From Branchiostoma floridae (Eukaryota > Chordata > Leptocardii > Amphioxiformes > Branchiostomatidae), in NCBI RefSeq assembly GCF_000003815.2, contig NC_049997.1, positions 11,269,387 to 11,333,386 on the forward strand: a stretch of DNA of 64,000 bases, written 5' to 3'. A program made the translations under genes and the position numbers. This document shows positions 10,101-53,082 of this stretch, in pieces. The stretch's first letter is position 1, and every line of letters starts with the position of its first letter. The notes under the pieces were generated by a model. It was not told where the DNA came from. It did no database searches and worked only from the letters and a program-made list of their open reading frames with translations.

Positions 10101-13100
10101 ATTTTGGCGTCAAAAATCTTCAAGTTGTCATCGATAGGCTCCCAGTTTGCCATAATCTGAGGAAAAAATGCAAGGACACTATAAGCTAGTTCACGTTTAA
10201 ACAGTGTATACACAACTAGGTGTAACTAATGTGTAATATGTCCACACTGAAGGCCCCTAACTTGAAATTGTAAACAGTTTATGCCTTAGGGGCCTTCAAC
10301 TTAGACATATTACCCATAGAGTGTCTTGCAGTTTAATTCATGATCTTTTGTTCCAAAGCAAACTTTAAGTAAAAGTAAAATTGGCTAATACAATTCTTTG
10401 GTAAACACAATTATTATTCTACATTTCTACCAATTACAACAAAGGTTTTGATCATCAAAGACAGTGTTCAACTGTCAAAATGTAAGTTTTTTTTCAGTTA
10501 AAGATGATTCTTCTTTTCAAAGATTCTAAAATCAGGGCGGTTTGGAGCAAACTTTTGTTTACTTGCCTTGTTGTCCACAAGGGTTGCAAACATCTGTGTC
10601 TCAATGAAAGGCGACAAAAAAGGCAAGTAGATGTCCGGTTGGTCCGACAAGAACGCTGCTTTGTCGAAGTTCGTCATCTGCTCCCTGTTACTAAACCACG
10701 ACTCCAGGTCACCGTTTGGTTGGATGACGAACGACTCGTAACCAAGCAACAAGGATGCTATTCTGTGCAAGAAGATTTCTCGTAACGCAGCGTTCAGTTT
10801 CATGTCTTCAAGATCGTGATCGACCTTCGGTTTCTTGTCAAATGCAGCGATCTCCGGGAGAGATTTCGCGATGTCGCTGATCGTGTGACTCACGCCCATC
10901 CGCTGAGCGATGGCGGTGATTTTCGCGATGGCTTCGCTGCTTTCTAGAATGTCGCGTTTACTGAGGGTTGTGGTGTGGGCGGGGCTTCCGGTGCGACCAT
11001 CGTCGCTGAGATGGCAGCCGGAGTCGCTACGACTGGGCGGGTTCATCCCCGGTTCCAGAGGCACGTTGCTGCGGACCAGGATCTCCGAGATTTCTTGGAG
11101 GACGTCCAGTTTCTTGGGAAACTGTGGGAGGTCCTCGGGCAGCTCCACTGTGTGGTTGTCAATGTCCACAAAACAGAGAGAGGCCTGCAGAGGGAAAACA
11201 AAACCTTCAGCGTTATCAGGCTGCCTCGTGGCTGATTGGCATCTTTAAGAATGATTCACTAGACTAATTTTCAGTTAAAAACAAAATTGTTCACACCCTA
11301 ATGCTATACAAATTACACTTTCAAGGAGTATGAATAATTGTTGTTAGCAGTAGATGCAAAGGCTAGGATGATGGTAGAATCTAACATTTCTAATGTTAGC
11401 AGTTTGGATGGAAGGATTATAAGAGAATAAAAACTGACTCAGATTAATGGATGGGTGAATGACTGGATGAATGCACATGCATAGACGGATAAATGCATGG
11501 ATAGAATGAATGAATGGAGGGATGGATAGATGGATGACTGATGATGACCGAGTGCAATGAATTGCCATGTTGATCCCACCTCGTGAGGCAACTGTAGCTG
11601 GGACCTGTCGTCCCTGCCGCTGTGGTGCAGGCCCATGATGTAGGGAATGAGTGAATGAATGAACAGATAAAGGAAGGATTGACCCACCTCGTGAGGCAAC
11701 TGTAGCTGGGACCTGTCGTCCCTGCCGCTGTGGTGCAGACCCATGATGTAGGGGACGGGTGCGTCCAGGAAGTGCAGCAGGGATGCGGGCAGGATGGGGA
11801 CGTACACGTGCTGCCACGTGAACGGGAACAGCAGCACGCTCAGACTCTCCGCTAGCAGCATCAAGCGATGGTAGTCTGACAATAGAAACGATAACATGTT
11901 GATTCTTGCATTCAAAACACTTGTTGTGACCTAACAATAGAATATTGGTTCTTATATTTAGACATAAGACATAGACTAATGTTTCAATATCAAAGCTTCC
12001 AATTGAATTATGTTTCAACTCCTAATTTTTACATGATATTGATTTATATATGGCCAACTGAATGGGAAGCAATACATAACATCATATCAAATCCATAACC
12101 AAATCCAAAACCATAATGATAGTTCATAACTTTCTAGAATCCAAATGATCCTTTTTAATCAAACCTACATGTACTTTGAAATGCCAAGAAGTCAACAGAA
12201 GCTAGTTACCTGGTTTGATAAAATTAATATATATCTAAAAGTCAAGTTAGACATTTTAATCCTGGTTTCATAATTTTATTTGTAAACACTGTTTTAAAGA
12301 AAGGAATGGCTAGGAAATATTGGGAAACTCCTAATTGGGAAATTTCTACCTTGTGAATACAGCAGTATATGTTTTTCCAAGAGAGCACAGGTCCACAGCT
12401 GTAGTACACTGTCCACCCCAAGGAGCATGAACATCTCTCGTATGTGGAAGTCGAACAGCGGCAGCTCGCTAGCACTGGGGCGGTGACACGTGATGGAGCC
12501 CTTTGCGCCGTTGAACTGTAAACTCCTACCCGGCGGCGGCAGCGGGACTTCGTACAAAACGTTGTAAACGTAGCTTTCTACGGGGAGCGGGGGTTGGGAT
12601 TTGGACGATATTGCTTCATACAACTGGGCCAGGAATCTTTTACAAGCTTGGATGAAAGGCAGTGGTGTTATAAGGCATATACTCTTGGTGACGTACAAAG
12701 TGTCGGAGGTTATGTCGTAAGTTCTGGGCACGTATCTCTCGTTCTCGTCCCCGATTTCGGGCGGGGTGCGGTCCATGAGGGGAAAGACGGTGCGAGACTG
12801 GCGGTTACTGAGTTCGGCCTGGTGCATGGCGAAGAGGGTCTGCATGGCTTCACAGATCTGTTTGTCCACGACTTTCTCGTAGAAAGTGAAGGAGGTTCCA
12901 TACGTGCGGCTGCCGTCCTCCCGCGTGATGATGAAGGAGTGGAAGCGGGTTTCCCGTCTCTCGTTCTCCGTACGGAATGACAAACCCTTCGGAAGGCAGA
13001 GCTGTGGAACAAACAGAATACAGTTATCAACTGTGCATTGCTATCTGCAAATGTTAAGGTCAGGTGTCAAGGAAAGACGCATCCATGTAATGATATATGC

Positions 13101-36910: not shown

Positions 36911-39900
36911 ATGGCCACCCCCAAGTTGAAGCAATTCCTTAAAAAAGCTCTGGCAAAGGTAGGTTCTATCCTTTATTATCCGCAATTTTAAGATTTTTGC
37001 TTCTTAAGATTGTATATTAAACCTTCCAAGCGGTTTGGGTATATAGGATATTCTTACAATTCGACAAACCCCTTAGAATTATGTTGAATTAACATTAGTC
37101 ATACAATATTAAGGTAAGCGTGTTCCTCTGTGATTCTGTGCCTTTCATTGTTTGTTAAAAGAAATTTTCAATATAGAATGATTTCTAAACTGCAATACTT
37201 TTGGAAAAAATCTTATGAGTTGTTATGCAACCTGTTAAATAATGTGTATCTTAAAATCAAACACTGATCAGGGATTAAGGTTGTCCAACACATGATTTTA
37301 TAATCAGTGATATGCACCCACATGTATTTTTGGCGAGAAAAATCATTGCAAAGATATGGTGTTTTTTTTAAAAAGGTAATCTCACTAATACTGTGTCTTT
37401 TGTTTGTGGCATATTTTTGTCAATTTTGAGACAACTTTACTGATAAAGTGATAAGATAGGAGTCGTAAAAGCAATAAAGGTCTTCTGTGTAACATCCATA
37501 ATCTAATTAAGGTACATTAGGCAGTGGATAAGTTGGTGTAAATGTGCCTTTGTCAGCCTGTCTTTTTATTTAAAGATTGGAATGATCTAATTTGTATTGG
37601 TGGCCAATGATATTCCTTTTTATGTAAAGCAAATTTTCATTTAATTACCCAGTAGTATGTTAAATACACATTGATGGGAATAAATGTAAGTTACGCTTAA
37701 GTATACAAATGGAATATAAAGGATATTATCAATAATGAATTCTGTTTTTGACAATGTTGACAATGTGTCTTATTCACAGACTTGGCTATCATTGAAATGT
37801 TTTTAAAAGTTTATCAATTTGTAGATATCAGGCTACATTTTAGCCTACAATTTTCTTTCTTTTTTTCTTTTTTGATAATAATCAAATACTGGATACTACT
37901 ACTACTATTACTACTACTACTTTCTCTAGGTACATTCCCGGTAGTGTTTAATCACAACTGTAGCTAGTATAACCACCCTTTGGTATTGCACACCAATTCT
38001 CAGGTTTGTGACAGCAGTTATTAATGGCATCAAAGTAGGCAGTCACATCACCCTTTGCACATTTGACATTCACTGAACTTTCTTAAAAATGGGTTACCTT
38101 AAATCTGTTAAAACGACTTGCCATACCACACATACCACCACCTTTCATCCCTGGTGCCCTCTGTATATACACAGTACACTGGCCACATCTGGAAGTGTGG
38201 CAACCATTGACACAGTCACACAAAACATACACAGTTTTGTTTTAGCTCATTGTCAGGGCTCGAAATGCCCACTTGCAATTTGAGATTGCAAAATTTCATG
38301 TAAGGCACAATATTACAAGCTGCATATTGTAGATCTGATATTAAAGATTCATCATAAGTAAAATCATAAAGTCATGTTTGTGCTGGTATATTATTTACAA
38401 ACCTGTGTCCAACAGGATTTGTAAAGCTGGTGTCTAGACTCTATGGGAAAAAATTTTATCTTAAAAGTCAACTCTCATTGGCCAAGTGGTCTTAATGTTT
38501 TTAGTGGTGGTTAGTTGTAGTTGTCACTGGAAATACAAAGTTTTTAGGGTAATGGTTTGTTGTATGTTACCTTTTCTTTTTTTTTTCTTCTTCCTATTGA
38601 TAAAGCCCACATCCATGGTAAAGAATATTCTGGCTTTTTCGTAGTGTAACATAACTCATCCGAGACTGTGATCTCGGCTTAATCCAAAGGGTTATCCATT
38701 TTAGTCATACAATTGTATAATCACTTGGTTGCAAAAAAGTTGTTGTACAGGTTTTCAGGGGTCACCAAAAGGTCGCAATGCAGTATTTGGTTGTAGGGTA
38801 AGTCACTGTGTCGACTACTTTTGCTTTGTAGCCGGGGGCTGAATTGCAAGGCCCTTTCTTTCATCTCCTTGCTTTTATTTTGTAGTTACAAAAGGTTTGA
38901 ATAGGTCCTTAAATTTAGAATGAAGTTCTACCTTGCAAAGGGTCATTAAGGTGTACATAATTAATGCCTTATTGTGAAGTACAGGTTAAACAAAATGAAA
39001 AAGACATAATAATCTGCTTTCTCCTAAGCTTTATTGCATACACATCAAACAGTAAGATCAATTGGACAAGGAAAACCCTGGACCATAAAGAAGCAATTTG
39101 CGTTGTCCGATTCACGGCAGGATTAAAACACATTAGCGGTAATTGGTTTCTAAATTACTGCTGAAGTTAGTATTGATTGCCATTTGTGAAGAGAAGCAAG
39201 AAAACAGACTGAGATAACATCATCTCGGAAAAGTACTTTTGGAAACCTCAAAGATGAAAGCATTATATGATAACAAAGTTTTTAAAAAATGAAGGCAGCA
39301 TGTATAGATTGGCCCCTGCTGTTCCAGAAAAGCTGCTGAGTGGACCAAAGTCTGCGCGATATCATATCGAGTCCAAAAGCTGTCAACCATATAAAAATCG
39401 GATGAAGGAGAATTCTTTTTACACCACCAGCAGGTGCTTACATTGCTTACGTTACAATGTCTCTGAAATACCTTCGTCATTTAAAAATCATGACCACTAC
39501 AAGTACAGAACATGAGATACAAAATGTATCACTACTATTACCGGAAGTCCTGATGCAGTAAAATGGCAAGACAGATGCTCAGGAAAAACATCCTTTTCCA
39601 AAAGCTGTAAAAAGTAAATGTTGTAGTATCTTCTAAATACATTAAATCACAATGTTGTAAAACAGTACATTTTATGGAAATTTTTGTGGGAAAAACAAAT
39701 CTTCATATACAATAATCAAAATACTAGTATATTGAGTTTAAAATTTAAGCTTTGCATTAAGCAAAACGGTCGATATACAAAACATTTGTATGTATGGAGA
39801 TCATACAAAAATTAAGAGACATTTAAAGGTTCTTGGTTTAGATTTCAAACCATCATGTTTGGTCTGTAACATAACAGCCATTCCACAAAGTACCATTGAT

Positions 39901-42900
39901 ATTTTATGGGAAAGCTGATGGATCCCATAACCAACACGGTTTGAACATTGATTTTTCTGTGGTACAAATAGACAGATGGGCGGGGCGGGAGCCGAGGTCA
40001 GTACTCAAGTAGTTCTCATCAGTACACCAAGGTCACATGCTGATCTATCGCGATCTTTTGGTGACCTTTGACCTACGGGAGCTACACGTTATCCCTAATG
40101 CTGTCTGGTAGACCACAGATGATGGCCCAGCGCTAACATTTTTCTGGAAAATGAAGCAAAATTGCTGGAATTTTTATTTGTGTATTCTGATGCTAGATGT
40201 TTAGTCTTAGATATTTAGTCATATTCTTACTTGCTCAGTGGAAATAATATGAAAATTGTCTTGATAATAAGAATTTTATTGTTTACATACGTGCTCATAT
40301 ATTGTAACACATCAAACTTAACAATAGCTAATGGTTATAGAGAATAAGAGATACATAATCTTTTTGCTTGCTTAACACATCAATGTAATGTTACATGACT
40401 TGTAATTATGTTAATTGTGATAAAAGTATGCTAAAACCTACTGTGTAATGATTCATTTAATTTAAGGATGACTCATTAACTCTAAATTATGATGTCATGT
40501 GAATGATTTGCATTACTGTCTCTTGAGTCTCGTCTTAAGTTCCTGTCTAACCTTATAAGGGTATTAAAGTTATGGGTTCAATTTCTGTTCCTGTTGACAT
40601 TTCTTAAGTATGATGCCTTCCTGTTTGTACTACAAGTTCATGTACCGGGGGTATGAAGAAAAAGAAGGGTGTGTTACATATTGTCTACTATGATTAGCTT
40701 AGAGATCAATGTCTTTCATCAAATAATTATGTATAACACCAACCCTGATTCCCTGTCAGAATTAGATGGGTTATCAATTATCAAATTAATTTAAGGTTTA
40801 CAAAAAAAACAGAAAAATCTGACCTAAAGGGTCAGCATAAAGCTAGTAACATTAATATGCATGGATACCATACAGAAATTAAATCTCATTGAATTTTAGA
40901 ATTTCCTAGTTTTGATTTCAAAACAGCATATTCAATGCTCCGTCTGTAGCATAACAGCTATTCCAGAAATTATTTAATATGAAAGCTTATCGATTTGATA
41001 ACAACAGTTATCAACCTTAGATTTTTGGAAGAGTACTTTCATTGCTGCAAATGTTTTGTTTTTTATTAGCATAATGATTTTCCCTACTGGTACTAGTAGG
41101 TGCTTCTATGCCTGAATTGCAAATTCTACCCTTGACCTATGAACTTGGCCATTGAAACTTACATGATGTATTGTCAAGTTGCATGACATGTGAAAGACAA
41201 TCCTTCCTTTGTTCTCTCTCCCAGTACTCCGCTGCCTTTGTCATGATTGTGTAAACTTTAACCCTGAACTCAGACGACCCTATAGCCCCTGGTATTCATC
41301 TACTGACTGCCTGTATGAAGTTTATGAATTTTTAATACTAAATGTTGTTACTAAAGGCAGGGCTCGAAATACTTTTTTCTGCATACCTGCACTGGTGAAG
41401 GTAACATTGAAAATTACCTGCACCGGACAAATTTTACCTGCACCACTCTACATTTAGGTAGTATGGATCATACTAAAATTGTTCAGCAACCATTGCTATT
41501 TATACAAAGTTTATGGTGGTAACAGTCAATGCAGCTAGTAACAATCCATATACAGCTACATAATAGGACATTTATGTATAAAAAACAGTTCATGGACCAG
41601 TGCAGGTTAGGTGCAGGTAGACAACCCTGAACTCAGATGACCCTAGAACCCCTGGTATTCATCTGCTGACTGCATGTATGAAGTTTATGAATTTTTAATA
41701 CTAAAGGTCATGCATTTTTCAGTAATGAGTAGAACAAAAAAGGCTTTGTCTTAGCATAGCATCTTCTTTCAACATATGTACCCATCAAGTTTTCAATTGC
41801 AAGTCATATAATAATGCTATTATCTAGAGATATATACTTAGCAATGAGATTGATACAGAGAAATGGTATACTGTACTCTCAAATTTGTTGCTTTTGTCCC
41901 TACTTGTTAATAAGCCATATATAGTTGAAGTCATGAATAAGAAAATCAATTCTTCACTTCTGTGGTAGCTTCTCTATGGGCTTAACCTGATATGACATCG
42001 TTGGGGTCATCAACCTTTTGATGACACCTGCTATCCTTTGTCATTTCTGATAAATGGTTAATATACAATGTATTCAAGGCTATACTTTTTTTTTCTGCAG
42101 TGCAGGTAACATTGAAAATTACCTGCACCAGACAAATTTTACATGCACCACTAGTGGATTTAGGAAGACTTTAGTATAGATCACATTTCAATTGTTTTGG
42201 GAACCATTGCTATTTTTCTTTTTCTTTTTTCTACTTACGAGGGGGGTTCAATAAGTTCTTTGCCTCACCAAGAAATAACAAGCACAACTCAGATTTTCAG
42301 GCACAACTTCATAGTATGAAGTCTTTTATCAATATCCTCCAAATTACAAATCATTGGAGTCATTACTTTCCAGGCATTCGTTTTTTCTAAATTAGAAGGT
42401 AAGTGGGGAGAAAAAGAAGGGTGAAGTGTGATCAGACAATTTGACCTCACACCTCAGGTTGCAGATCAATTGTCCACCTTTTTTTTTCGTTATCCCTTAC
42501 CTAACGTTACTGGGTGTCGCCTGCAACATGATGATCACAATAATTTGAATTTTGGTACACATTTATATAAGACTTTATACATGTACGTGGGGTTATCAAT
42601 AAGTCCCCGACTTTACCGAGAAAAAATAAGCACAGCTCAGATTTCGAAGCATAGATGTCAAGTATAAAGTCTTATATAAATATGTACCAAAATTCAAATT
42701 AGTGTGATCATTACTTTGCAGGCGACACCCAGTACCGTTAGGTGAGGGAGAAGGAAAAAAACGTGGACAATTGACCTGACCTGAGTGTGTGGGTCAATTT
42801 GCGCTGCTGGAAGTTAGAAACACAATTCTTTTTGCTTGAAATAGGAAGAGAATCATTATCAAACATTTTGACAACGTCTTTTGTTAATTTATGGCATGGG

Positions 42901-45900
42901 AAACTAGACCCACACATGTCTGATCACAATTCACACAACTTTTTTCTCGCCACTTACCTTCTAATTTAGGAAAAACGAATGCCTGGAAAGTAATGACTCC
43001 AATGATTTGAAATTTGGAGGATATTGATAAAAGACTTCATACTATGAAGTTGTGCCTGAAAATCTGAGTTGTGCTTGTTATTTCTTGGTGAGGCAAAGAA
43101 CTTATTGAACCCCCCTCGTAATAGGTGGTAAGAGTCAATGCAGCTAATAACAATCCACATACACCTATACATATGACATTTACTTTTTGTATGTATAAAA
43201 CCCAGTACATGGACAAGTGCAGCTTAGGTGCAGGTAGACACCGGAAGTACCTGCACAGCTCCAATTTTACCTGCACTAACCTGCATATACAGGTGGTATT
43301 TCGAGCCCTGTACATTATTTATAGAGATATTATAGTGTGTACATATTGGTAGTATAGGGGATTCTGATTTTCTTTTCAGAAGAACAATGGAACACATTTT
43401 GCTGTTATTTACTAATTTAGTGGTGCAAAATTTTAGTTTCAATCTTTTTCATGCTTGCCAATGTCCATCTCCATTTGTATTAACAAGGGTGAAATTTTGG
43501 CTATTCATAAAAAAATTATTAGATTGTCAACCAATATTGCAATACATGGTTGCTAAATGTAAATGTGGAAATTTTGCTGTGGTTTAATGTTGCGGATTTT
43601 GTGATAACAATTCTTTGCCGACTGACCTAAAAAAATGCTTGCTTCACCTTCACAATGATCTCTCCATTTTATCCCTAGCATCACGAAATTAAATCCTAGT
43701 GGAAAATAGAGGAGGGAAATCTAGAGATCTGTTTCCCATATTGTCCTAGATATGGGGACACCTGTTTCTCCCTGGTATGATGTCATCATAACTCATTGTG
43801 GATGGCCTTGTACTCTGAAGGATCTTCAAAATTAATCCCAGGAGACCATTATGAATGGTCTGATGTCCTGCAGTTATCATAACCATCAAGGTTATTTTGT
43901 TTTTTGTGTGAAAATTATTAATCTATCTAAAATATTAGATCTGCTGAGGTCTAATATGAAGAATTGATTTTAGCCCCCTAACATCTGCTATTCAAACTGC
44001 AGAGAAGTACACCATGTTAGGCCACACTGATTTGATAAAATAGATGACATCGTCTGGGAACCCCAAAACTGATGCGAGCGAGCGAATAAAAGAGTTTGGA
44101 AAAGAAAAGGTTGCCTTCATTATGAAATCTTAAAGATTCTTCATTCTCGATCTGTCACATCTTCTTTGATCTTGGAATTAATATTTTTCATTCTATGGCA
44201 CTAGCAGGCTTTTAGCCAGGCATGCGTCAATGCGTCATCTGGACGCACTTTTCAATTTGATGCCCCTGGGCGCCCTTACACTACAGAGAAAATTGTCTTA
44301 CAAGCATGAAATTCTGATTGACCAGGGATGCTACCAGGTCATCTGTGGTCACAGTCTTCTACTGTGACCTCTGGAACAGTATTTTTGCCTCTTGGGATAC
44401 CTAAGAATGCACTCATTTAACTTTAAATCATCAAATACTCTGCACCATGGAAGGTGGATGCCCCCAGACCCCCCTACATTAGTCACTTACCGTGACTCAC
44501 CAATAAGTTTGGACTCCCTATTATAAAATCCTAGCTAAAAGCCTGGGCACTAGTATACGTTTTCCGTTATTCTTTTTTTTTGCAATCCACGCACAACAAG
44601 TGTTTGCTCTGATTGCAGCTGCTTTGTACTAATTGTACCATACAGTAAAGTTCAAATAGCCAAAAATTGATGCACGCATGGATGTTGTCCATATAATAAG
44701 ATCAACGTGGCCTTAGAAAAGAAAAAGAAATGTACCGGGTGCTGTTTTTCGTTGATAACATGATGGTGTTTCTATTCCTTCTGTAGTACAAGCACAAGGA
44801 TGTGACACAGAAGGAAGTGGTGGCGACCCTCAAGCACTTTGAGGACCTCAAGCCAGTGGTAGACACATATGGTAAGTATTCCCAAAGAGACATAAGAATA
44901 AATTTCATGACAATGTACTTATCATTTACTCGATGTCACAGACTAGAGTTGAACTTGCTGAACGTTTTTAACAACAGTGTATAGATTGCTAAGCAGTGCA
45001 AACAACATGTGACTAACAGCTCATGCTACGTCTTCATGACAAATTGCTAATCTATACATTTATACGTTGCAAAGCTAGTGAGCTAGAAAGAGCAATCCAA
45101 GGTACCTATTTAGTAAGTAAGGTTTCACCATGATTCTTAAATGTAGCAGTCTTATTCAAATATTTGGTAGATCTATTGTCATCGTGAAGTGCAGTATAAT
45201 GTGATCCCTTCGTAACTTTTTTCCACAGTTTTCAACGACGGATCACAGACTGAGTTACTGTGTCTGTGTGGAACCATCCCAGTCAAGATAAAAGGTACTT
45301 TAAACATTTTTGTGGTGTATTTGGGTCAGATTGCAACAAAAAAAAGACGAAAAAAAAGTGCTGTGAATGAGATAAGTTTGTTTGATGTAAACACTGCAAA
45401 AATCAAGCTGTTGAGTCTGTCATGGTGACCACTAGTTTTCGTAAAAATCAACTGCTTTACGTTTGTCAGAGCTAATTTGGTCTGCCATGCCATTTAGTGT
45501 AAGTTGTAACTTGAAGGTGTTGTGCTCGTGTAACCTCAGCCTTTGTCACCTCTAGAACTACGAGGACAAAGTACGTCAGCAGGGGCGTCAGGAGGTGTGT
45601 GTTTGGTTCGCTTTAAACTAATCTCCTCTTCACTATTCTAGTCTCTTAGAAAAGTTTCCAATCCTTTTGTCTCCTTTCCTGTAGAGCTGTTAGTAGTGTT
45701 ACTAAACCTGGTGTTGTTCGGACTGAATGTCATGATCACTAACCTCTGCTGGTGTGAGAAGCTTATCTGTGTGTAGCTAAGTACACTCACTAACAGTGGC
45801 CTCAATCGTGGTCACCAAAAGTGCTTTTAAGTTTGTGTTGATTTATTTTTGTGGTGTGTAGAATATGGAGTATCCGTCATGGTTTCGAGTAGGCAAAAGT

Positions 45901-48900
45901 GCTTACTATACAATAATAGGAACACCTGTTTTAAGTTTACATGTAGTTGTCATCACTATGAACATAAAACCACCTCAAGAATTGAAAAGAAAAACAGTAT
46001 AGTAGCCTTCTGCTTGCTCTCCTTGTATTGCTTGACAGCTCTGGCCTTTTATTATAATTCATATTTTTGTTGTATTTCTTGTACTTTTATCATCCCAAAG
46101 TCTATCTCTTTGTAATAGTTTGTTAGGCATGGTTGTATGTCTCTCACACTGTCACAGTCGAATCAGTATGTCTCTCACACTGTCACAGTCGAATCAGTAA
46201 GTAAAACACTTGCTTACAAATTTTGTGAGCATACAGAAAAGTGATTGGAAGGAAAACTAAATTGGATGTCATCCTAGGCTTTGCACTCAGTAACTTTTTC
46301 ATAACTAGTATTCCCATATCCATTGAATCATCTAAAATTTGGTCAAGGACCACTTCTGATTGGAAATAATGCTTCAGCCCTGAGTTATTGCTTAAAAAAT
46401 GGTCTCTATCCTTTCAGCTAACACCTACAACATCCCAGTGTGCATCTGGCTGACGGAGTTCCACCCCGAGATTCCCCCACTGGTCTACGTGCGCCCGACG
46501 GGAAACATGGTCATCAACGAGTCCAAACACGTGGACATGAACGGGAGGGTGTACATGCCGTATCTCCACGAGTGGACACATGTGAGTACCAAGTGTTACA
46601 GTGGTACAAACAGTCACATGTAAGTGCCTGTGGTACAAATGGTCACATGTAAGTACCAAATGTTACAGCGGTACACACAGTCACATGTAAGTACCTGTGG
46701 TACAGTTGGTCACATGTTAGTACCAAATGTTACAGCGGTACAAACAGTCACATGTAAGTACCAAATGTTACAGCGGTACAAACAGTCACATGTAAGTACC
46801 TGTGGTACAAATGGTCACATGTAAGTACCAAGTATTACTGTGGTACAAACAGTCACATGTAAGTACCTGTGGTACAAACAGTCACATGTAAGTACCTGTG
46901 GTACGAATGGTCACATGTAAGTACCAAGTGTTACAGCGGTACAAACAGTCACATGTAAGTACCTGTGGTACAAATGGTCACATGTAAGTACCTGTGGTAC
47001 AAATGGTCACATGTAAGTACCAAGTGTTACTGTCACAGTGGTAGAAACAGTCAAATATGAAATGGGCCCAACTCTGGTTAAGGTCTGTGAATCTGGTCAT
47101 TGTGACTACTTTTTGATGGTCTCGTAGATTGTATTCCTATTTTGACGCAAAGACTAAACATGTGTACATTTTCTTAAAGTCCTCAGATTGATTACTAGAA
47201 TAGGCTGTATTGTGCCTATACTTTTAAAAAGTTTATCTTTTGTGGGCCTGAACCTGACACAGTATACGTTTTCTGTGTGGGAAGCACTTGATTATGCTTT
47301 TAGGAATAGTTGAATTGGACTTACAGGCACTCGTCAATAAAAATAGAATTCTATATGTTAAAATGTTGTCAAAGTACAAACATAAGATATACAGTTGTGT
47401 CTTACATGACATGTAGGGAACAGAGATTATTCATTTACAATGTGGCACGAAAATTGTGGTAAAGACATTATATCAGACACAATCAATATGCTCACATGGC
47501 ATTGCTAATACTATAGGGGCAAAAGCATATAGTACCTGCAGCTAATGCGCTGACCATACATGTATTACCTAACATGCGTCCGCAACAGCAGGGACCCAAC
47601 CAGTATGACTCCAGTGTCTCCCTGGGTTTGTGGAAACGTCACACCTGTTCCACAGCCTGTCTACAGGTACTCACACAGGCCACACAACTACTGTTACATT
47701 ACAGAACTTCCAGCTTCCTGCTCACAACTTTGCTGTTTGTCGCTGCCTCACACTCTCTCTCTCGCTCACTCGGGTTTAACGGCTATTGTTCCTCATCTTA
47801 CGAGGGTTGGACGTTGCAGGATGTTGCACTCTGTTGCAGCTTACCGCAAATTGGAAGTCTGTTCCTCACATTATTGTACAAAGTTGTCTCAGTCACTTTG
47901 AATGCAAGCACAACACGTGACATCACTAATGCACACCCATTCATTGTCAAGAAAGTGGGCTAGGTGCAGGTCATTCTACCTTCAAGTTGCTGTCTTCAGA
48001 TGAGTTGGCAAAAGATGAAGTTATAGTAAGGATGTGGCAGTGATACCAGTGTACCTGATGTTATGTTTTAGTTGATATACATCCCCAAGACCTAAGGACC
48101 AGAACAGAACCCACCTACTATGCAGTTTCATTGCCATGCAGTCCCTGTTCTTTTTGTTTTCACTTTGCCATCTGTGTTAAGTTTTGTGTTTATACATTTA
48201 TCTGATATTTTAGGCGCTTCACCGGTCGAGCAGCGCCTCTAGCATGCCAACTGCTCGCAGCAGTCCCTCTCGGTCAGGAAATGTAAGAAAAAAAGAAAAT
48301 TAGTATCACAATTGTTTTGATGGTATCAAAACAATCAAAGTGTGATTGGCGTGTGATTTAATCCTGTGTGATTAGCGTTAGTGTGTGATTTAATCTCGAC
48401 AGTCACTGAGATTAGAAAAAAGAATCTAAAGTGTAAAGATTGACTTTGATTTAAACAAATTACGATTACAAATTATGATTTTATCTCATGCAGTTTTGTT
48501 GCCTATTCTCTTTTGCTGTGACTTCTTAAAAGTATAGTTTGACTTTAAATTGATTTTAAACAACTTGCTTCAAAAGTTATTATGATTTCATCTCATGTAT
48601 TTTTGTTGCCTGTTCTCATTTGCTGTGACTTTGCTGTTTGTTTTGAGTTTTTTGTTTGAATCTTATATTTTCTAGGCGCTTCAGCGGTCAAGTAGTGCCT
48701 CTGGTGTACCTGCTGCTCGGAGCAGCCCCTCTCGGTCAAGAAATGTAAGACTAAAACGGAAAATAAATAGAATTTTCTTCTGACACAACTTATTAAGAAA
48801 GGTATACACATGTACCTCCAAATCAGTCCATCTTGTTCACAGAGTGACCTTGTCTCGCGAGAGTGCAAGACTAGGTCCAGACTTGCATCTCATCTGGACC

Positions 48901-51900
48901 TAGCCTTGCATTCTCGCGAGATTAGGTCACTCAAATTCGGGGGTCGAAGTTACGTCTGTATACCTTTAAGATTAAATCACTGTTAGAAGAAAAATGTGCT
49001 CAAACATGACTAATGAATCCCTTCAACAATAATCATACATTTATTTTTTTAATTCAGTGATAATATTATGTGCCGTAACCCCACATAGTGCAAGCAGCTA
49101 ATAATGACACTAGAATCATCCAGAAAATTGAATTATTGGTTTTATCTGACCTGTAACATATGGCAAAAAGATTTGCTTCATGTGGTCTTCAAATTCAATG
49201 AAAAAAGGTTTCCAAGTTCTCTAACTTATCTCTTGTTGCATGTCTGCCACCTAGCAGAACTGTATAAACTGCACCTGCTAAAATACATTCAGGTTGTTGT
49301 CTCTTGTAACCACCAATCACTGACTACACTATTTACAGGTCTTTTCACCTGTTCTTACCTTTCTGGCTCCTTAATCCACTTTAGGTTTGAATACTACTAT
49401 CAATATTATATCACTGGAGCTGTATTGTATTATCTCTCATTTAACTAACTGGCATGGACCAATACTATGTAATGATTGAAGGTAGAGTAAAAGGTAGGAC
49501 ACAATATAATGTCATGTCATCTCATGATCAGTCATTTAAAATTTGAATTTTGGTACACAGATTCTAATAACATGCAACAGTTCAAACAGAAGGAGCATAA
49601 TATTACTCAAAAAACAGTTACAATAGACTTATGGAAGTTGTATTTCTCACAGTACATTCAATTTTGATTTTATTTTTTTCATTTACAAGAAAAAAACATT
49701 TGGCTGCTTCTATTTTGTCTGATTTTTTGCACCCCATCTTTTTAGGACTCGGATCTGATCGTTCTGATTCAGCACATGAGACGGGTGTTCTCCGAGGAAC
49801 CTCCCGTCTTCATGAGGAGCGCGTGCCCGCCAGGATCGTACCTTCCCGCCGAGATCGAGAGAATTCTGACGGACAAGGTGTACCGCAACAGGCAGATCAC
49901 GCAGCTGGACGTCAGGAATGCCGTCACCAACTTCAAGGACCTAAAGGTCCATGTGGATGTATTTAGTAAGTTTCTTTATTCCACATACCTTCTGTTCCAC
50001 CATCTCAGCTAATCTATGTTCTGCTCCTTGTATTAAAAAAAATTGTAATCATTTTGATATTAGATCTGCCCAGTATGTTATAGTCCAGGAGTGATTGTTG
50101 TTAAATCCAAACTTTCAGAAATTTGTTAATTTTTTCACAAAATGTTGCATCTACAGGTAACTGTCCTAACATAACAAGGTCCTTTATTCACAATCAGAAT
50201 ATGTTAAACTTTACACAATTTACAGCCAACGTTTCGGTCACTTTCCTTAGGACAACAAAGAAGGGGGCAAACGATCACGGGAACATCACCCGTTTATTGT
50301 ACAATAAATTCTGATTGTGCAAGAATCGTCTTGTCCTGTCAGACCAGTGATTTTACTTAATATGAAACTATTACAGTTTGACTGTTTATCATGATCCTGC
50401 CCCTTTTTACCTTTTTACAGAATATTGTTACAATGTACATGTGTCATGTATGTTGGTGGTGGTTAGGGTGGGGACATGGGATTGAGAGGTAAAAGGGACA
50501 GGCTTTGCCTTTCAACCCACTGCCACTATACATGTACATGTAACGTTAATTCACCTTTATCCGTTGGGTAGCCTATTTTTTTTTTTTTCTCAAGCAGGGT
50601 ATGAACAGATATTATCATAAGTCGACGCAGGTTGGTTTAAAATTGCAATATTTTCAGGATATTTCAGCTTGAAACCACCACCCGTTGACATGATATCACA
50701 AGTTGAACATACCCTGTTATTAAAAGCAACGGATATAGGTTACTCTACGGATAAAGGTGAACCAGTGTTACATGTAGCCTTATAAAGAAGAGAAAGACAG
50801 TGCGTAAGTAAATACATGTAGTTTCATCAGGTTGGTAAAATACTTGATCACAAAGTTTTTCATGCACAATCATGAAATTTATTAAGAGCCTGGCCCAATG
50901 TTTCGATGACCATCTGTCATCTTCATCAGGGCTATACTGACTGGTTCACAGTTAAAGTTAAAGTTGCCCGTGCATCAGTAACAGATGCTTAGGCGTGGCG
51001 CCCATCTCCATTTCTGTAGCCCTTGGGCCACACATGTGCAAGCCACTACAGCAGGGGGCTGGTCTGCTGGTAGTGATGTGTGTTTAGCTTCCATACTCTT
51101 TCTCATTAGTGCTGAGTGCTAAGCAGAGAAAGCAGCATGTACCATTTTAAAAGTCTTTGATATGACTCGGCCGGGGATCGAACTCACGACCTACCGAATG
51201 CAAGGCGAACGCTCTACCCACTCGGCCATTGCACCGGTTAACAGTGCACTGCACTGGAGTTAAACAGCAAACCAGTCGGTATAGCCTTGACGAAGACGAC
51301 AGATGGTCATCGAAACATTGGCTCTTAATAAATGTAATGGTTGTGCATGAAGAACTTTGTGATCAAAGACAGTGCCTGTCAGATATTGAATGTTTAACTT
51401 GTTCCTTCCTGTAGGTACACCTGGGGCCTCCAAGAGAGAGCTGCTGTGCCTGAAGGGAACGGTACCTGTCATCTACAAGGAGGGCACCTACAACATTCCG
51501 CTCAAAGTCTGGCTGTTCGAGGACCACCCCAACGCCTCGCCTGTCTGCTACATTGTACCCACCAACAACATGAGAATCAACGACAGGTGTAAGCACGTCA
51601 ACGCAAACGGGAAGGTGCAACTGCCATACCTCGACGACTGGAAAGATGTGAGTTTAAAAGTCGCAAGATAGCAGATAGTCAAGTAACTAGATGGGCTGCG
51701 ATAACGTTTGATACAGGTGTTCCAGACCGTGTGATAAAAAGCTGTACCACACAGGCTTCGAAGTTGTATCACACAGGCTTCCATCAAGTATTTCAAACGT
51801 ACTCTGTGCACGCCAGTGTGGCGCAGTCAAAAATTAAAATACCTGATTTGGACGTTGGAACATTGCTGTTGTAACAATTTTGGTGCATTTTGCATCGGCC

Positions 51901-53082
51901 ATCGGGCGATCCTACCTGCGGTCAGGCTGGCACCTCAGGTGATACGGAATACCCCGTGTTGTATTCTACATGTGTATATAGATTTTGGAAATGACTGGCA
52001 TTTTAGGTTTTGTATTAATTAGATAGATGTCTGGAGCATTAGAGTGTCAGTTCCATGAGCATGGGAAATGTCCAGACTTAGTTTTTTAAGCTGGAGTTGT
52101 AGAGATTGAATTGTATTTTGAATATTATTTTTATTGTTATTCCAGGCAAACAGTGACTTGTTCAGTCTGATCCAGGTCATGAGGATTGTGTTTGGAGAGG
52201 AGCCACCTGTCTATGCCCTCGCTGATGCTTCAGGTGCAGAGAACACAGGGGCAGACGTTGTCTCACCAGGAACAACATCAGGTCAGAACTCAACAAGTTT
52301 TCAAAAATGCTACAGTCCCTCCCACCACAATTGTGCATCAGGCAGCACCAGGGTTGTAGCCAGCACCCGTCCTTTGATGGAATTTTGCAGCTGAGGACAG
52401 AAAAAAATGTTTGCCAATTTCGTCCTCTGTGAGCAAAATATAACCCTCAAATTGCAGGAAATAGTGTTTCAGAGGGTCTGGATTTCAAAATTTTCCTTGG
52501 GAGCATGCCCCCGGACACCCCTAGGAACGCAGTGCCAAAGCCATTCAAAATTAAGGGGACGGAAACTGATTTCAGGCTGGCTACAAGCCTGGGGAGCACC
52601 CATCTTTGTTTAATCCTTGGCTACACAGTGTTTTGTACAATCACTATAGCAGGGGGGGTAGTCCACTGGTAGTGGTGTGTGTTCAACTACCTACTCCTTC
52701 CCAAATACTGAGTGCTAAGCAGAGAAAGCAGTATGTAGGATTTTTAAAGCCAAGATCTTTTTCATTTTCAACTTTCTTATGATATTTGCATGCATGTAAG
52801 TCTATTTTTCCAAACTTTTCAGGAACAGCTCCCACCTCTGCCAGCTCTGCCCCACAGCAGGCAGACCAGGCAACGACCGACAAGCCTCCCAAGTCCGCAG
52901 ACCGAGTCCTCTGTCTCATCTGCATGGACAAGAAGGTGGACTCTGTGGTGTACGACTGCGGACACATGTGCATGTGCTTCGAGTGTGGACAGGCCGTGCT
53001 GGACGCCCAGGCCAACTGCCCCATGTGTCGCTCGAAAATCAAGGACATCATCCGAACATACCATGCCGGGGTGGCCGAATAG
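36911..53082 (+). CDS. Tandem UEV-UEV-RING protein (TSG101-like E2 variants plus Neuralized-type RING), 10 exons
   Basis: Exons 36911-36958, 44787-44871, 45229-45294, 46418-46581, 48214-48282, 48676-48744, 49746-49965, 51415-51647, 52146-52281 and 52823-53082 give 449 residues, all junctions in frame with GT-AG. UEV1 (about 1-121 and 168-190) has TYVFNDGSQTELL, GTIPV, NTYNIPVCIWL, GNMVI, KHVDMNG, PYLHEW and LIQHMRRVFSEEPPVF. UEV2 (about 195-345) has GTVPVIYKEGTYNIPLKVWL, NNMRI, KHVNANGKVQLPYL and LIQVMRIVFGEEPPVY. Neither has an E2 catalytic cysteine in a conserved site. A serine/threonine/proline linker follows, then a C3HC4 RING (Cys394, 397, 409, His411, Cys415, 418, 429, 432) ending CPMCRSKIKDIIRTY, closest to Neuralized. 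TSG101's coiled coil and C-terminal box are absent. UEV2 keeps the TSG101 Tyr63/Tyr68/Met95 PTAP-pocket positions; UEV1 loses Tyr63. UEV1 keeps the ubiquitin-contact Asn45/Asp46; UEV2 loses them. Confidence 0.9.
41259..41708. repeat. Direct repeat of an 85-base segment flanking element remnants
   Basis: The 85 bases at 41259-41345 (AACCCTGAACTCAGACGACCC ... TTTTTAATACTAAA) recur at 41624-41708 with few mismatches. Between them lies the shorter copy of the CAGGGCTCGAAATAC-end element. The duplication unit is therefore about 365 bases and included part of that element. Confidence 0.8.
41359..43313. mobile_element. Composite of CAGGGCTCGAAATAC-end elements with a nested mariner-type insertion
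   Basis: An end GCAGGGCTCGAAATAC at about 41359 and its inverse GTATTTCGAGCCCTG at about 43298-43313 bound the region. The internal sequence (GTAACATTGAAAATTACCTG, and GTCAATGCAGCTA.TAACAATCC) occurs twice, at 41400-41625 and at 42108-42225 plus 43132-43245; the second copy is split by the mariner-type element at 42238-43118. The CAGGG terminus resembles hAT-type ends; the assignment is tentative because the target duplication is not clear. Confidence 0.65.
42238..43118. mobile_element. Mariner-type foldback element with long inverted arms, itself interrupted
   Basis: Termini CGAGGGGGGTTCAATAAG and its exact inverse are flanked by TA at 42236-42237 and 43119-43120, as for Tc1/mariner. Arms of about 200 bases (42238-42445 and 42918-43118) pair almost throughout. 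A second inverted-repeat element with similar TACGTGGGG..TCAATAAGT motifs occupies the centre (arms about 42450-42585 and 42655-42792). No transposase frame is recognisable. Confidence 0.8.
44205..44545. mobile_element. hAT-like non-autonomous element with perfect 8-bp target duplication
   Basis: GGCACTAG at 44197-44204 is repeated at 44546-44553. The ends CAGGCTTTTAGC and GCTAAAAGCCTG are exact inverses. Length 341 bases, no coding capacity. An internal GATGCCCCCAGACCCCCCTA resembles the GCCCCCGGAC..CCCTAGG block of the 52349-52591 family. Confidence 0.9.
46135..46196 (+). repeat. Perfect 31-bp tandem duplication
   Basis: Two identical units starting GTATGTCTCTCACACTGTCA, followed directly by GTAAGT, in intron 3 of the UEV-UEV-RING gene. 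Each unit ends with CACAG-TCGAATCA before a GTATGT or GTAAGT, a miniature acceptor-donor arrangement. Confidence 0.9.
46577..47032 (+). repeat. Minisatellite beginning at the exon 4 donor of the UEV-UEV-RING gene
   Basis: The authentic junction reads CACAT|GTGAGTACC. From 46619 to 47011, CACATGTAAGT recurs 12 times and CACATGTTAGT once, at spacings of 29 or 37-39 bases, alternating a short unit (ACCTGTGGTACAAATGGT) and a long unit (ACCAAGTGTTACAGCGGTAC). Each unit thus carries a strong GTAAGT donor and the long units also a TTACAG acceptor-like site. The array is intronic. Confidence 0.92.
48214..48282 (+). CDS. Duplicated 69-bp linker exon, copy A, inside UEV1
   Basis: Phase 0 at both ends, AG acceptor and GTAAGA donor. 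It encodes 23 residues rich in S, R and P, including SSSASSMPTARSSPSRSGN. It falls between PYLHEWTH and DSDLIVLIQ, that is, within the UEV fold just before its C-terminal helix. Skipping it and its twin restores the contiguous TSG101-like order, so it is probably a cassette exon. Confidence 0.8.
48676..48744 (+). CDS. Duplicated 69-bp linker exon, copy B, inside UEV1
   Basis: Same length, phase and splice sites as copy A at 48214-48282 and clearly homologous: ALQRSSSASGVPAARSSPSR against ALHRSSSASSMPTARSSPSR. The upstream intron shows a matching duplicated stretch (about 48484 against 48592, both TTTTGTTGCCT.TTCTC.TTTGCTGTGACTT). Inclusion of A, B, both or neither all keep frame. Confidence 0.8.
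48842..48932. repeat. Palindromic foldback element, 40-bp arms
   Basis: Arms 48842-48881 and 48893-48932 are inverses at 36 of 40 positions around an 11-base loop, with TCTCGCGAGA at the core of each arm. It is in the intron just 97 bases after linker exon B. It would form a stable RNA hairpin in the pre-mRNA. Confidence 0.85.
50150..50335. mobile_element. Short inverted-repeat element
   Basis: TTCACAATCAGAAT at about 50187 and ATTCTGATTGTGCAA at about 50309 are near inverses bounding an interior with CAGCCAACGTTTCGGTCA. Similar motifs (GAAACATTGG, TCTGATTGT) occur in the 50838-51370 structure and near 61600, so this is likely one of a family. Boundaries are approximate. Confidence 0.5.
50838..51370. 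mobile_element. Foldback element with about 95-bp inverted arms, hosting a SINE
   Basis: The left arm, about 50849-50946 (TGATCACAAAG ... TTAAGAGCC.GGCCCAATGTTTCG ... GACTGGTT), is inverse to the right arm, about 51272-51365 (AACCAGTC ... CGAAACATTGGCTCTTAA ... CTTTGTGATCA). The tRNA-headed SINE at about 50950-51240 lies between the arms. It sits in intron 7, its right arm ending about 50 bases before the UEV2 exon. Confidence 0.8.
50950..51240 (-). mobile_element. tRNA-derived SINE, full-length copy
   Basis: On the minus strand the 5' end (51240 downward) has an A box TGGCCGAGTGG and a B box GAGTTCGATCC in tRNA-like spacing, followed by a body with ACACATCACTACCAGCAGACC and GAGATGGGCGCCACGCC, and a 3' end with AACTTTAACTTTAAC repeats. 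Fragments of the same body occur at 25445-25592 and about 52640-52745. Confidence 0.85.
52349..52591 (+). mobile_element. hAT-like non-autonomous element in intron 9
   Basis: Ends CAGGGTTGTAGCCAGC and GCTGGCTACAAGCCTG are inverses with one mismatch; flanks GGCAGCAC (52341-52348) and GGGAGCAC (52592-52599) agree at 7 of 8. The internal GAAATAGTGTTTCAGAGGGT and ATGCCCCCGGACACCCCTAGG-type block define a family also seen at 28826-29116 and, as fragments, at 56268-56890. It starts 68 bases after exon 9. Confidence 0.82.
52640..52745 (-). mobile_element. SINE fragment
   Basis: CACTATAGCAGGGGG, CCACTGGTAGTGGTGTGTGT and GAGTGCTAAGCAGAGAAAGC follow the same order as 51045-51140, the middle of the SINE at 50950-51240. 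The tRNA-like head is absent. It lies directly downstream of the hAT-like element in intron 9. Confidence 0.75.
52823..53082 (+). CDS. RING-finger exon of the UEV-UEV-RING gene
   Basis: The last exon carries the whole RING plus a T/S/A/Q-rich linker. Zinc ligands follow C-x2-C-x11-C-x-H-x3-C-x2-C-x10-C-x2-C. The CGHMCMC and IKDIIRTY signatures are those of the Neuralized RING, which is an active E3 in known proteins, so E3 activity is likely here by family. Because the RING is on a separate exon at a phase 1 boundary, it fits acquisition by exon joining. Stop TAG at 53080-53082. Confidence 0.95.

Follow-up and report, generated by a model that had tools for sequence, protein, structure and literature searches.

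A lancelet gene joining two TSG101-type UEV domains to a C-terminal RING: a candidate ubiquitin- and P(T/S)AP-reading ligase outside ESCRT-I

The interval from 36911 to 53082 (+ strand) of the window, the 64,000-nucleotide stretch of Branchiostoma floridae DNA that was analysed, raises the question of whether two UEV domains and a RING are carried there on a single polypeptide and, if so, what such a protein would do. Eight exons in this interval join in frame into one chain of 403 residues, with a start ATG at 36911 and a stop codon that ends at 53082. All seven introns are GT-AG (7/7), and the phases are consistent throughout. The sequence-only reading of this DNA had held that the exons join in frame, which these introns and phases bear out for the eight exons; it had also given a chain of 449 residues, and the 46 residues by which that figure exceeds the present exon set were not reproduced. 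The GC content is 54.5% in the exons vs 37.1% in the introns. The locus is very probably a real protein-coding gene of the lancelet, with the following exons:

36911..36958, + strand: exon 1, start codon and N-terminal helix of the first UEV (UEV1), residues 1-16; donor GCAAAG/gtaggt, phase 0
44787..44871, + strand: exon 2, 85 nt, UEV1 up to the start of the hairpin; GT-AG, phase 1 out
45229..45294, + strand: exon 3, 66 nt, putative ubiquitin-binding hairpin (V)FNDGS of UEV1; phase 1 in and out
46418..46581, + strand: exon 4, 164 nt, core of UEV1; phase 1 in, phase 0 out; PF05743, E 8.0e-19
49746..49965, + strand: exon 5, end of UEV1 (SDLIVLIQHM...PPVF), short linker and start of the second UEV (UEV2); phase 0 in, phase 1 out
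51415..51647, + strand: exon 6, 233 nt, core of UEV2; PF05743, E 8.7e-24
52146..52281, + strand: exon 7, end of UEV2 and linker; phase 0 in, phase 1 out
52823..53082, + strand: exon 8, linker, C3HC4 RING (residues 346-392), tail IIRTYHAGVAE and stop; phase 1 in; PF13920, E 2.6e-14

Residues 9-16, encoded by exon 1, align with the TSG101 UEV ahead of YKYRD in the PDB match. In a Pfam search of the 403-residue chain, PF05743 (chain-level E 1.5e-82) marked two UEV stretches, and PF13920 (E 2.6e-14) a single RING. Six families were matched at the cut-off of E ≤ 0.01, all of them UEV or RING-type zinc-finger models, with no FANCL domain, F box or NHR domain (PF07177) among the six, and an NCBIfam search returned 0 families. 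Against the PDB, the chain was matched best by TSG101 UEV chains, at UEV1 (E 6.7e-50); UEV2, when queried alone, likewise matched the TSG101 UEV (E 6.8e-38). The two TSG101-like UEVs claimed earlier are thus confirmed by Pfam and PDB matches, and the domain search of the translation that had been proposed with them recovered UEV, UEV and a C-terminal C3HC4 RING. The accompanying claim that the C-terminal box of TSG101 is missing also stands, as Vps23_core is absent from the chain in Pfam at E ≤ 0.01. Position 110 of human TSG101, which we take to be the vestigial active site, is not a Cys in either domain (Y in UEV1, Q in UEV2). The UEV/RING architecture is judged to be beyond chance because of the E-values, the exon lengths identical to those of TSG101, and eight exons that are open at near-saturated synonymous divergence. 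A pseudogene or chance ORFs were rejected because 8/8 exons are open and because exon lengths and splice phases agree with TSG101.

The genome searched comprises 513,431,437 bases on 431 contigs, and the window lies in it at C19:11269387-11333386. The sole Vps23_core match of this search (9 candidates scored, introns not modelled) is at C19:2750180, outside the window, on the same contig as the UEV-UEV-RING gene and about 8.6 Mb off. It lies 7.5 kb beyond other UEV exons at C19:2742703, on the same strand, and the two are presumed to be one ordinary TSG101 gene. A Vps23 core hidden in or near the window was rejected on the strength of this single match elsewhere, with the limit that a strongly diverged core could escape. 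Exons 2-4 of UEV1 have the same lengths (85/66/164 nt) and the same intron phases as those of the genome's TSG101. Exon 6 of UEV2, at 233 nt, equals the 66 and 164 nt exons of TSG101 merged plus one codon, so that one intron is missing in UEV2. A phase-1 exit is common to exon 7 and the equivalent post-UEV exon of TSG101. Pairwise identity with the TSG101 of the same genome is 59.8% for UEV1 and 47.4% for UEV2, and 43.9% between UEV1 and UEV2. The comparison of UEV1 with this TSG101 gave dN 0.34, dS 1.59 and dN/dS 0.21, that of UEV2 gave dN 0.47, dS 1.47 and dN/dS 0.32, and that of UEV1 with UEV2 gave dN 0.48, dS 1.29 and dN/dS 0.37; dS (1.29-1.59) is near saturation, and the ratios are accordingly rough. 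These values are in line with purifying selection on the UEVs, and eight exons open at such divergence point to selection on the protein. An origin of the UEVs from TSG101 is strongly supported by these comparisons; UEV2 may have come from a doubling of UEV1 or as a second copy from TSG101. The protein resembles TSG101/Vps23 of ESCRT-I in having UEVs that are both of the TSG101 type, and differs from it in having two of them together with a RING, and in lacking the Vps23 core (steadiness box).

The metal ligands of the RING are complete (C3HC4) and an Arg follows the last Cys. In the alignment with the cIAP RING, the tail IIRTY stands against VRTF, with its Tyr opposite the cIAP Phe; an Arg after the last Cys and such a tail residue go with active, dimeric RINGs. 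The AlphaFold prediction of the RING exon alone had a mean pLDDT of 49.5, too poor for use, so that the case for dimerisation rests on the alignment. The nearest non-self RING among 21 genome RING matches (a lower bound) is at C4:28483177, with 54% identity and no NHR match listed nearby; Pfam searches of 4 ORF pieces (of 80 ORFs) beside it gave, beyond the RING, only two matches below the cut-off. Each of the next three nearest RINGs is about 3 kb or less from Neuralized (NHR) exons. In a tree of 12 RING rows, the window RING groups with these nearest RINGs, apart from the IAPs (support 84/87, below the starred level). The evidence on the earlier assignment to the Neuralized type is mixed: the three near RINGs beside NHR exons and the side of the tree agree with it, whereas the closest RING is not by an NHR exon and a support of 84/87 is not strong. 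That the RING is Neuralized-like is weakly to moderately supported by these comparisons. The possible link of the lancelet protein to Neuralized itself (NHR and RING) lies in those three NHR-adjoining RINGs; Neuralized differs in its NHR domain, which the lancelet chain lacks. The genome has 35 NHR (PF07177) matches, none of them on contig C19. Two of the RING exons, at C146:90665 (L008) and C4:25080553 (L009), are identical in protein over the RING and both near NHR matches; the pair is possibly an unplaced allelic copy.

Exon 8 is entered at a phase-1 intron. Pyrimidine-rich candidate acceptors of phase 1 were found in 5/7 related RING exons examined (L007, L009, L010, L012 and L014), of which L009 and L012 also have candidate acceptors of other phases; L008 has no candidate acceptor, and L013 only one, of another phase. 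From the phase-1 entry and these acceptors, we infer most simply that the RING was gained by exon shuffling at a phase-1 intron. In lancelets, new domain pairs are reported to arise at >10 per million years, and exons of phase 1-1 are reported to be the vehicle by which promiscuous domains spread (passages of PMC4284660). The RING exon is terminal, and the 1-1 phase rule therefore does not strictly apply to it. A new domain pairing per se is not surprising in a lancelet. The gene clearly illustrates what looks like exon shuffling at a phase-1 intron that has been conserved, in a chordate noted for rapid domain recombination. A second UEV-RING gene was looked for in the genome and rejected: 2/5 UEV exon matches are this gene, and 0/21 RING matches lie within 1 Mb of the other three, all of these counts being lower bounds.

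Introns of up to 7.8 kb leave some room for the view that the exons were mis-joined, and that the UEV exons and the RING exon come from separate transcripts. The structure of the 3' end makes this highly improbable. As no Met precedes the RING in exon 8, this exon depends on an earlier + strand exon that exits in phase 1, and exon 7, which lies 541 bp upstream of it, does so. If left unspliced, exon 7 reads through 36 intron codons and then meets a stop. Also, no AATAAA or ATTAAA is present between exons 7 and 8, a weak point as both are also missing from the 1.5 kb that follow exon 8. The border of exon 4 and intron 4 carries a further feature that bears on splicing:

46577..47021, + strand: donor-motif array, 14 copies of CACAT/GTRAGTACC (≤1 mismatch) across the exon 4/intron 4 border

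The 14 matches (12 exact and 2 with one mismatch) compare with 0.05 expected, and TRF arrays are located there too. The presumed exon-4 donor has the hexamer GTGAGT, and the 13 downstream copies consist of 12 GTAAGT and one GTTAGT. Only the first copy keeps the chain in frame; the second, 38 nt on, shifts the frame, and read-through of exon 4 meets a stop at that second copy. With 13 further donor-like copies and only the first in frame, splicing of exon 4 may therefore be leaky and diverted into truncated UEV1 forms, and the array constitutes a natural test of 5' splice-site choice. Exons 2, 3, 5 and 7 all exit in phase 1, so isoforms without parts of the UEVs could also reach the RING.

The binding sites of the two UEVs were compared in human TSG101 numbering, with residue roles following those given in PMC3217271, PMC7073217 and PMC9944984. 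The region containing the hairpin at 43-48 is reported to bind ubiquitin (passages of PMC9944984). This hairpin reads VFNDGS in UEV1 (6/6 as human) and IFNDGS in the genome's TSG101; in UEV2 it is lost, the sequence there being STPGAS (1/6 as human). Impaired binding by TSG101 is reported for two substitutions, to ubiquitin with N45A and to P(T/S)AP with M95A, and growth of knockout cells was still rescued by either mutant (passages of PMC7073217); the two sites are therefore not essential there. The P(T/S)AP pocket is described as outlined by Y63, Y68, I70, M95, F142 and S143 (passages of PMC3217271). The corresponding residues are Y, Y, I, M, F and A in the genome's TSG101. UEV2 has Y, Y, I, M, Y and A, with one change from the genome's TSG101 and 4/6 as human (F142Y, S143A), and UEV1 has I, Y, I, M, F and M, with two changes from the genome's TSG101 and 4/6 as human (Y63I, S143M). 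By this comparison of residues, the two UEVs look non-equivalent. The pattern suggests, as a hypothesis, a division of labour, with ubiquitin read by UEV1 and P(T/S)AP motifs by UEV2. The count against the human pocket ties at 4/6 vs 4/6, so the pocket half of the split rests on Y63 and position 143. With identities of 43-60% and so few positions involved, drift could account for the complementary pattern of hairpin and pocket, and UEV1 may still bind P(T/S)AP, as M95 is kept.

Among known proteins, UEVLD has a TSG101-like UEV fused to a lactate-dehydrogenase-like domain and not to a RING, BRE/BRCC45 is not known to have a RING or UEVs of the TSG101 type, and LRSAM1 is a RING-type E3. BRE/BRCC45 resembles the lancelet protein in that two UEV domains have been reported in it (passages of PMC4891082). 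FANCL (E2-like fold, double RWD, RING) also places dead-E2-like folds before a C-terminal RING on one chain. Its E2-like fold is reported to bind ubiquitin non-covalently within a RING E3, by a contact that is not catalytic and is dispensable in vitro but needed in cells; the ubiquitin surface is described as distinct from that of E2s (PMC4543658), and the lancelet chain has no FANCL Pfam domain. Morgue (zinc finger, F box, UEV) is an invertebrate fusion of a UEV with an E3 part that associates with polyubiquitin, and differs in having an F box instead of a RING and one UEV with an active-site Gly (passages of PMC3787007); the lancelet chain has no F box. LRSAM1/TAL and MGRN1 are E3s that use P(T/S)AP motifs to act on TSG101, and its ubiquitylation by them is reported (passages of PMC7073217). 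In these E3s the motif is on the ligase and the UEV is engaged in trans, whereas the lancelet UEVs and RING are on one chain. The interaction of the TSG101 UEV with Nedd4 is reported to relieve the auto-inhibition of the latter (PMC11512315). An E3 with a dead-E2-like ubiquitin-binding domain is thus not new in kind, given the FANCL and Morgue precedents; the readers here are of the TSG101 type.

No UEV-RING family was found in the openly licensed literature, among the matches listed, and one may be annotated elsewhere; the earlier claim that no described family has the UEV-UEV-RING order stands within the same scope. The openly licensed literature also yielded no UEV with a RING in amphioxus or Branchiostoma. 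UEV and RING are unmentioned in PMC2575513, on amphioxus domain rearrangement, and in PMC4284660, and passages of the ESCRT-evolution paper PMC10936438 contain no UEV-RING protein. Relatives were searched for in viral contigs (147 pattern matches, 0 confirmed) and in prokaryote genome contigs (74 pattern matches, 0 confirmed), both collections being non-invertebrate and silent on the age of the gene.

Taken together, the gene probably combines TSG101 UEV exons with a captured RING, and we infer for its product the function of a ubiquitin- and P(T/S)AP-reading RING E3 outside ESCRT-I. The TSG101 UEV exons would have been doubled, and the coiled coil and steadiness box replaced by a terminal Neuralized-like RING exon at the phase-1 intron. 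UEV1 would dock on ubiquitin already present on a cargo or adaptor and UEV2 on sorting adaptors with P(T/S)AP-like motifs, while the RING would recruit E2~ubiquitin to modify whatever the UEVs have bound, by adding ubiquitin or extending it. The protein would act as a RING E3, probably a dimer, beside but not inside ESCRT-I; having no Vps23 core, it should not assemble into that complex. The single-chain reader and ligase proposed earlier would thereby remain the best fit: its UEV-UEV-RING chain without a Vps23 core is confirmed, the two UEVs do not look equivalent, and the function is a predicted one. If this holds, the protein would be a natural single-chain link of ESCRT cargo reading to a ubiquitin ligase, a link made in trans by TSG101 and partner E3s, and it would provide a natural UEV pair with ubiquitin and P(T/S)AP binding separated. 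A more specific form of the proposal, in which the binding sites were split after the doubling (ubiquitin on UEV1, P(T/S)AP on UEV2), and a dimeric RING ligase needs both marks as an AND gate that couples ESCRT-style recognition to chain extension, is put forward only tentatively.

As an ESCRT regulator or decoy, the protein would either compete through UEV2 for the P(T/S)AP adaptors of TSG101 or act as a ligase on TSG101 or its partners. This role would agree with a UEV2 pocket that is one change from the genome's TSG101, with the lack of a Vps23 core, and with the described E3s that have TSG101 as a substrate and bind it through P(T/S)AP motifs (passages of PMC7073217). It leaves the intact ubiquitin hairpin of UEV1 unexplained and is considered unlikely. 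Less likely again is that the UEVs are scaffolds without ubiquitin or motif binding, in a shuffling product of minor or lineage-specific role. The reported lancelet rate of >10 new domain pairs per million years (passages of PMC4284660) is in line with such a product, as is another UEV of the genome that adjoins a death-domain exon; however, the 6/6 hairpin of UEV1 and the retention of Y63, Y68, I70 and M95 in UEV2 are unexpected if binding had lapsed.

Other UEV exons of the genome were also recorded. At L025-L026 (G000:C8, about 12570425-12573420, - strand), the order is UEV exons, then a charged linker exon, and then a death-domain exon (PF00531, E 6.1e-9). This candidate UEV gene is an apparent UEV-death fusion, in which the junction from linker to death exon is of phase 1. 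L023 (G000:C19:1397644-1397817, - strand) is a diverged UEV exon (PF05743, E 3.1e-15) and is followed by a basic Ser/Pro-rich ORF with no Pfam match. Within the window, a neighbour gene at 10501-13040 (- strand) carries uDENN, DENN and dDENN domains in two ORFs.
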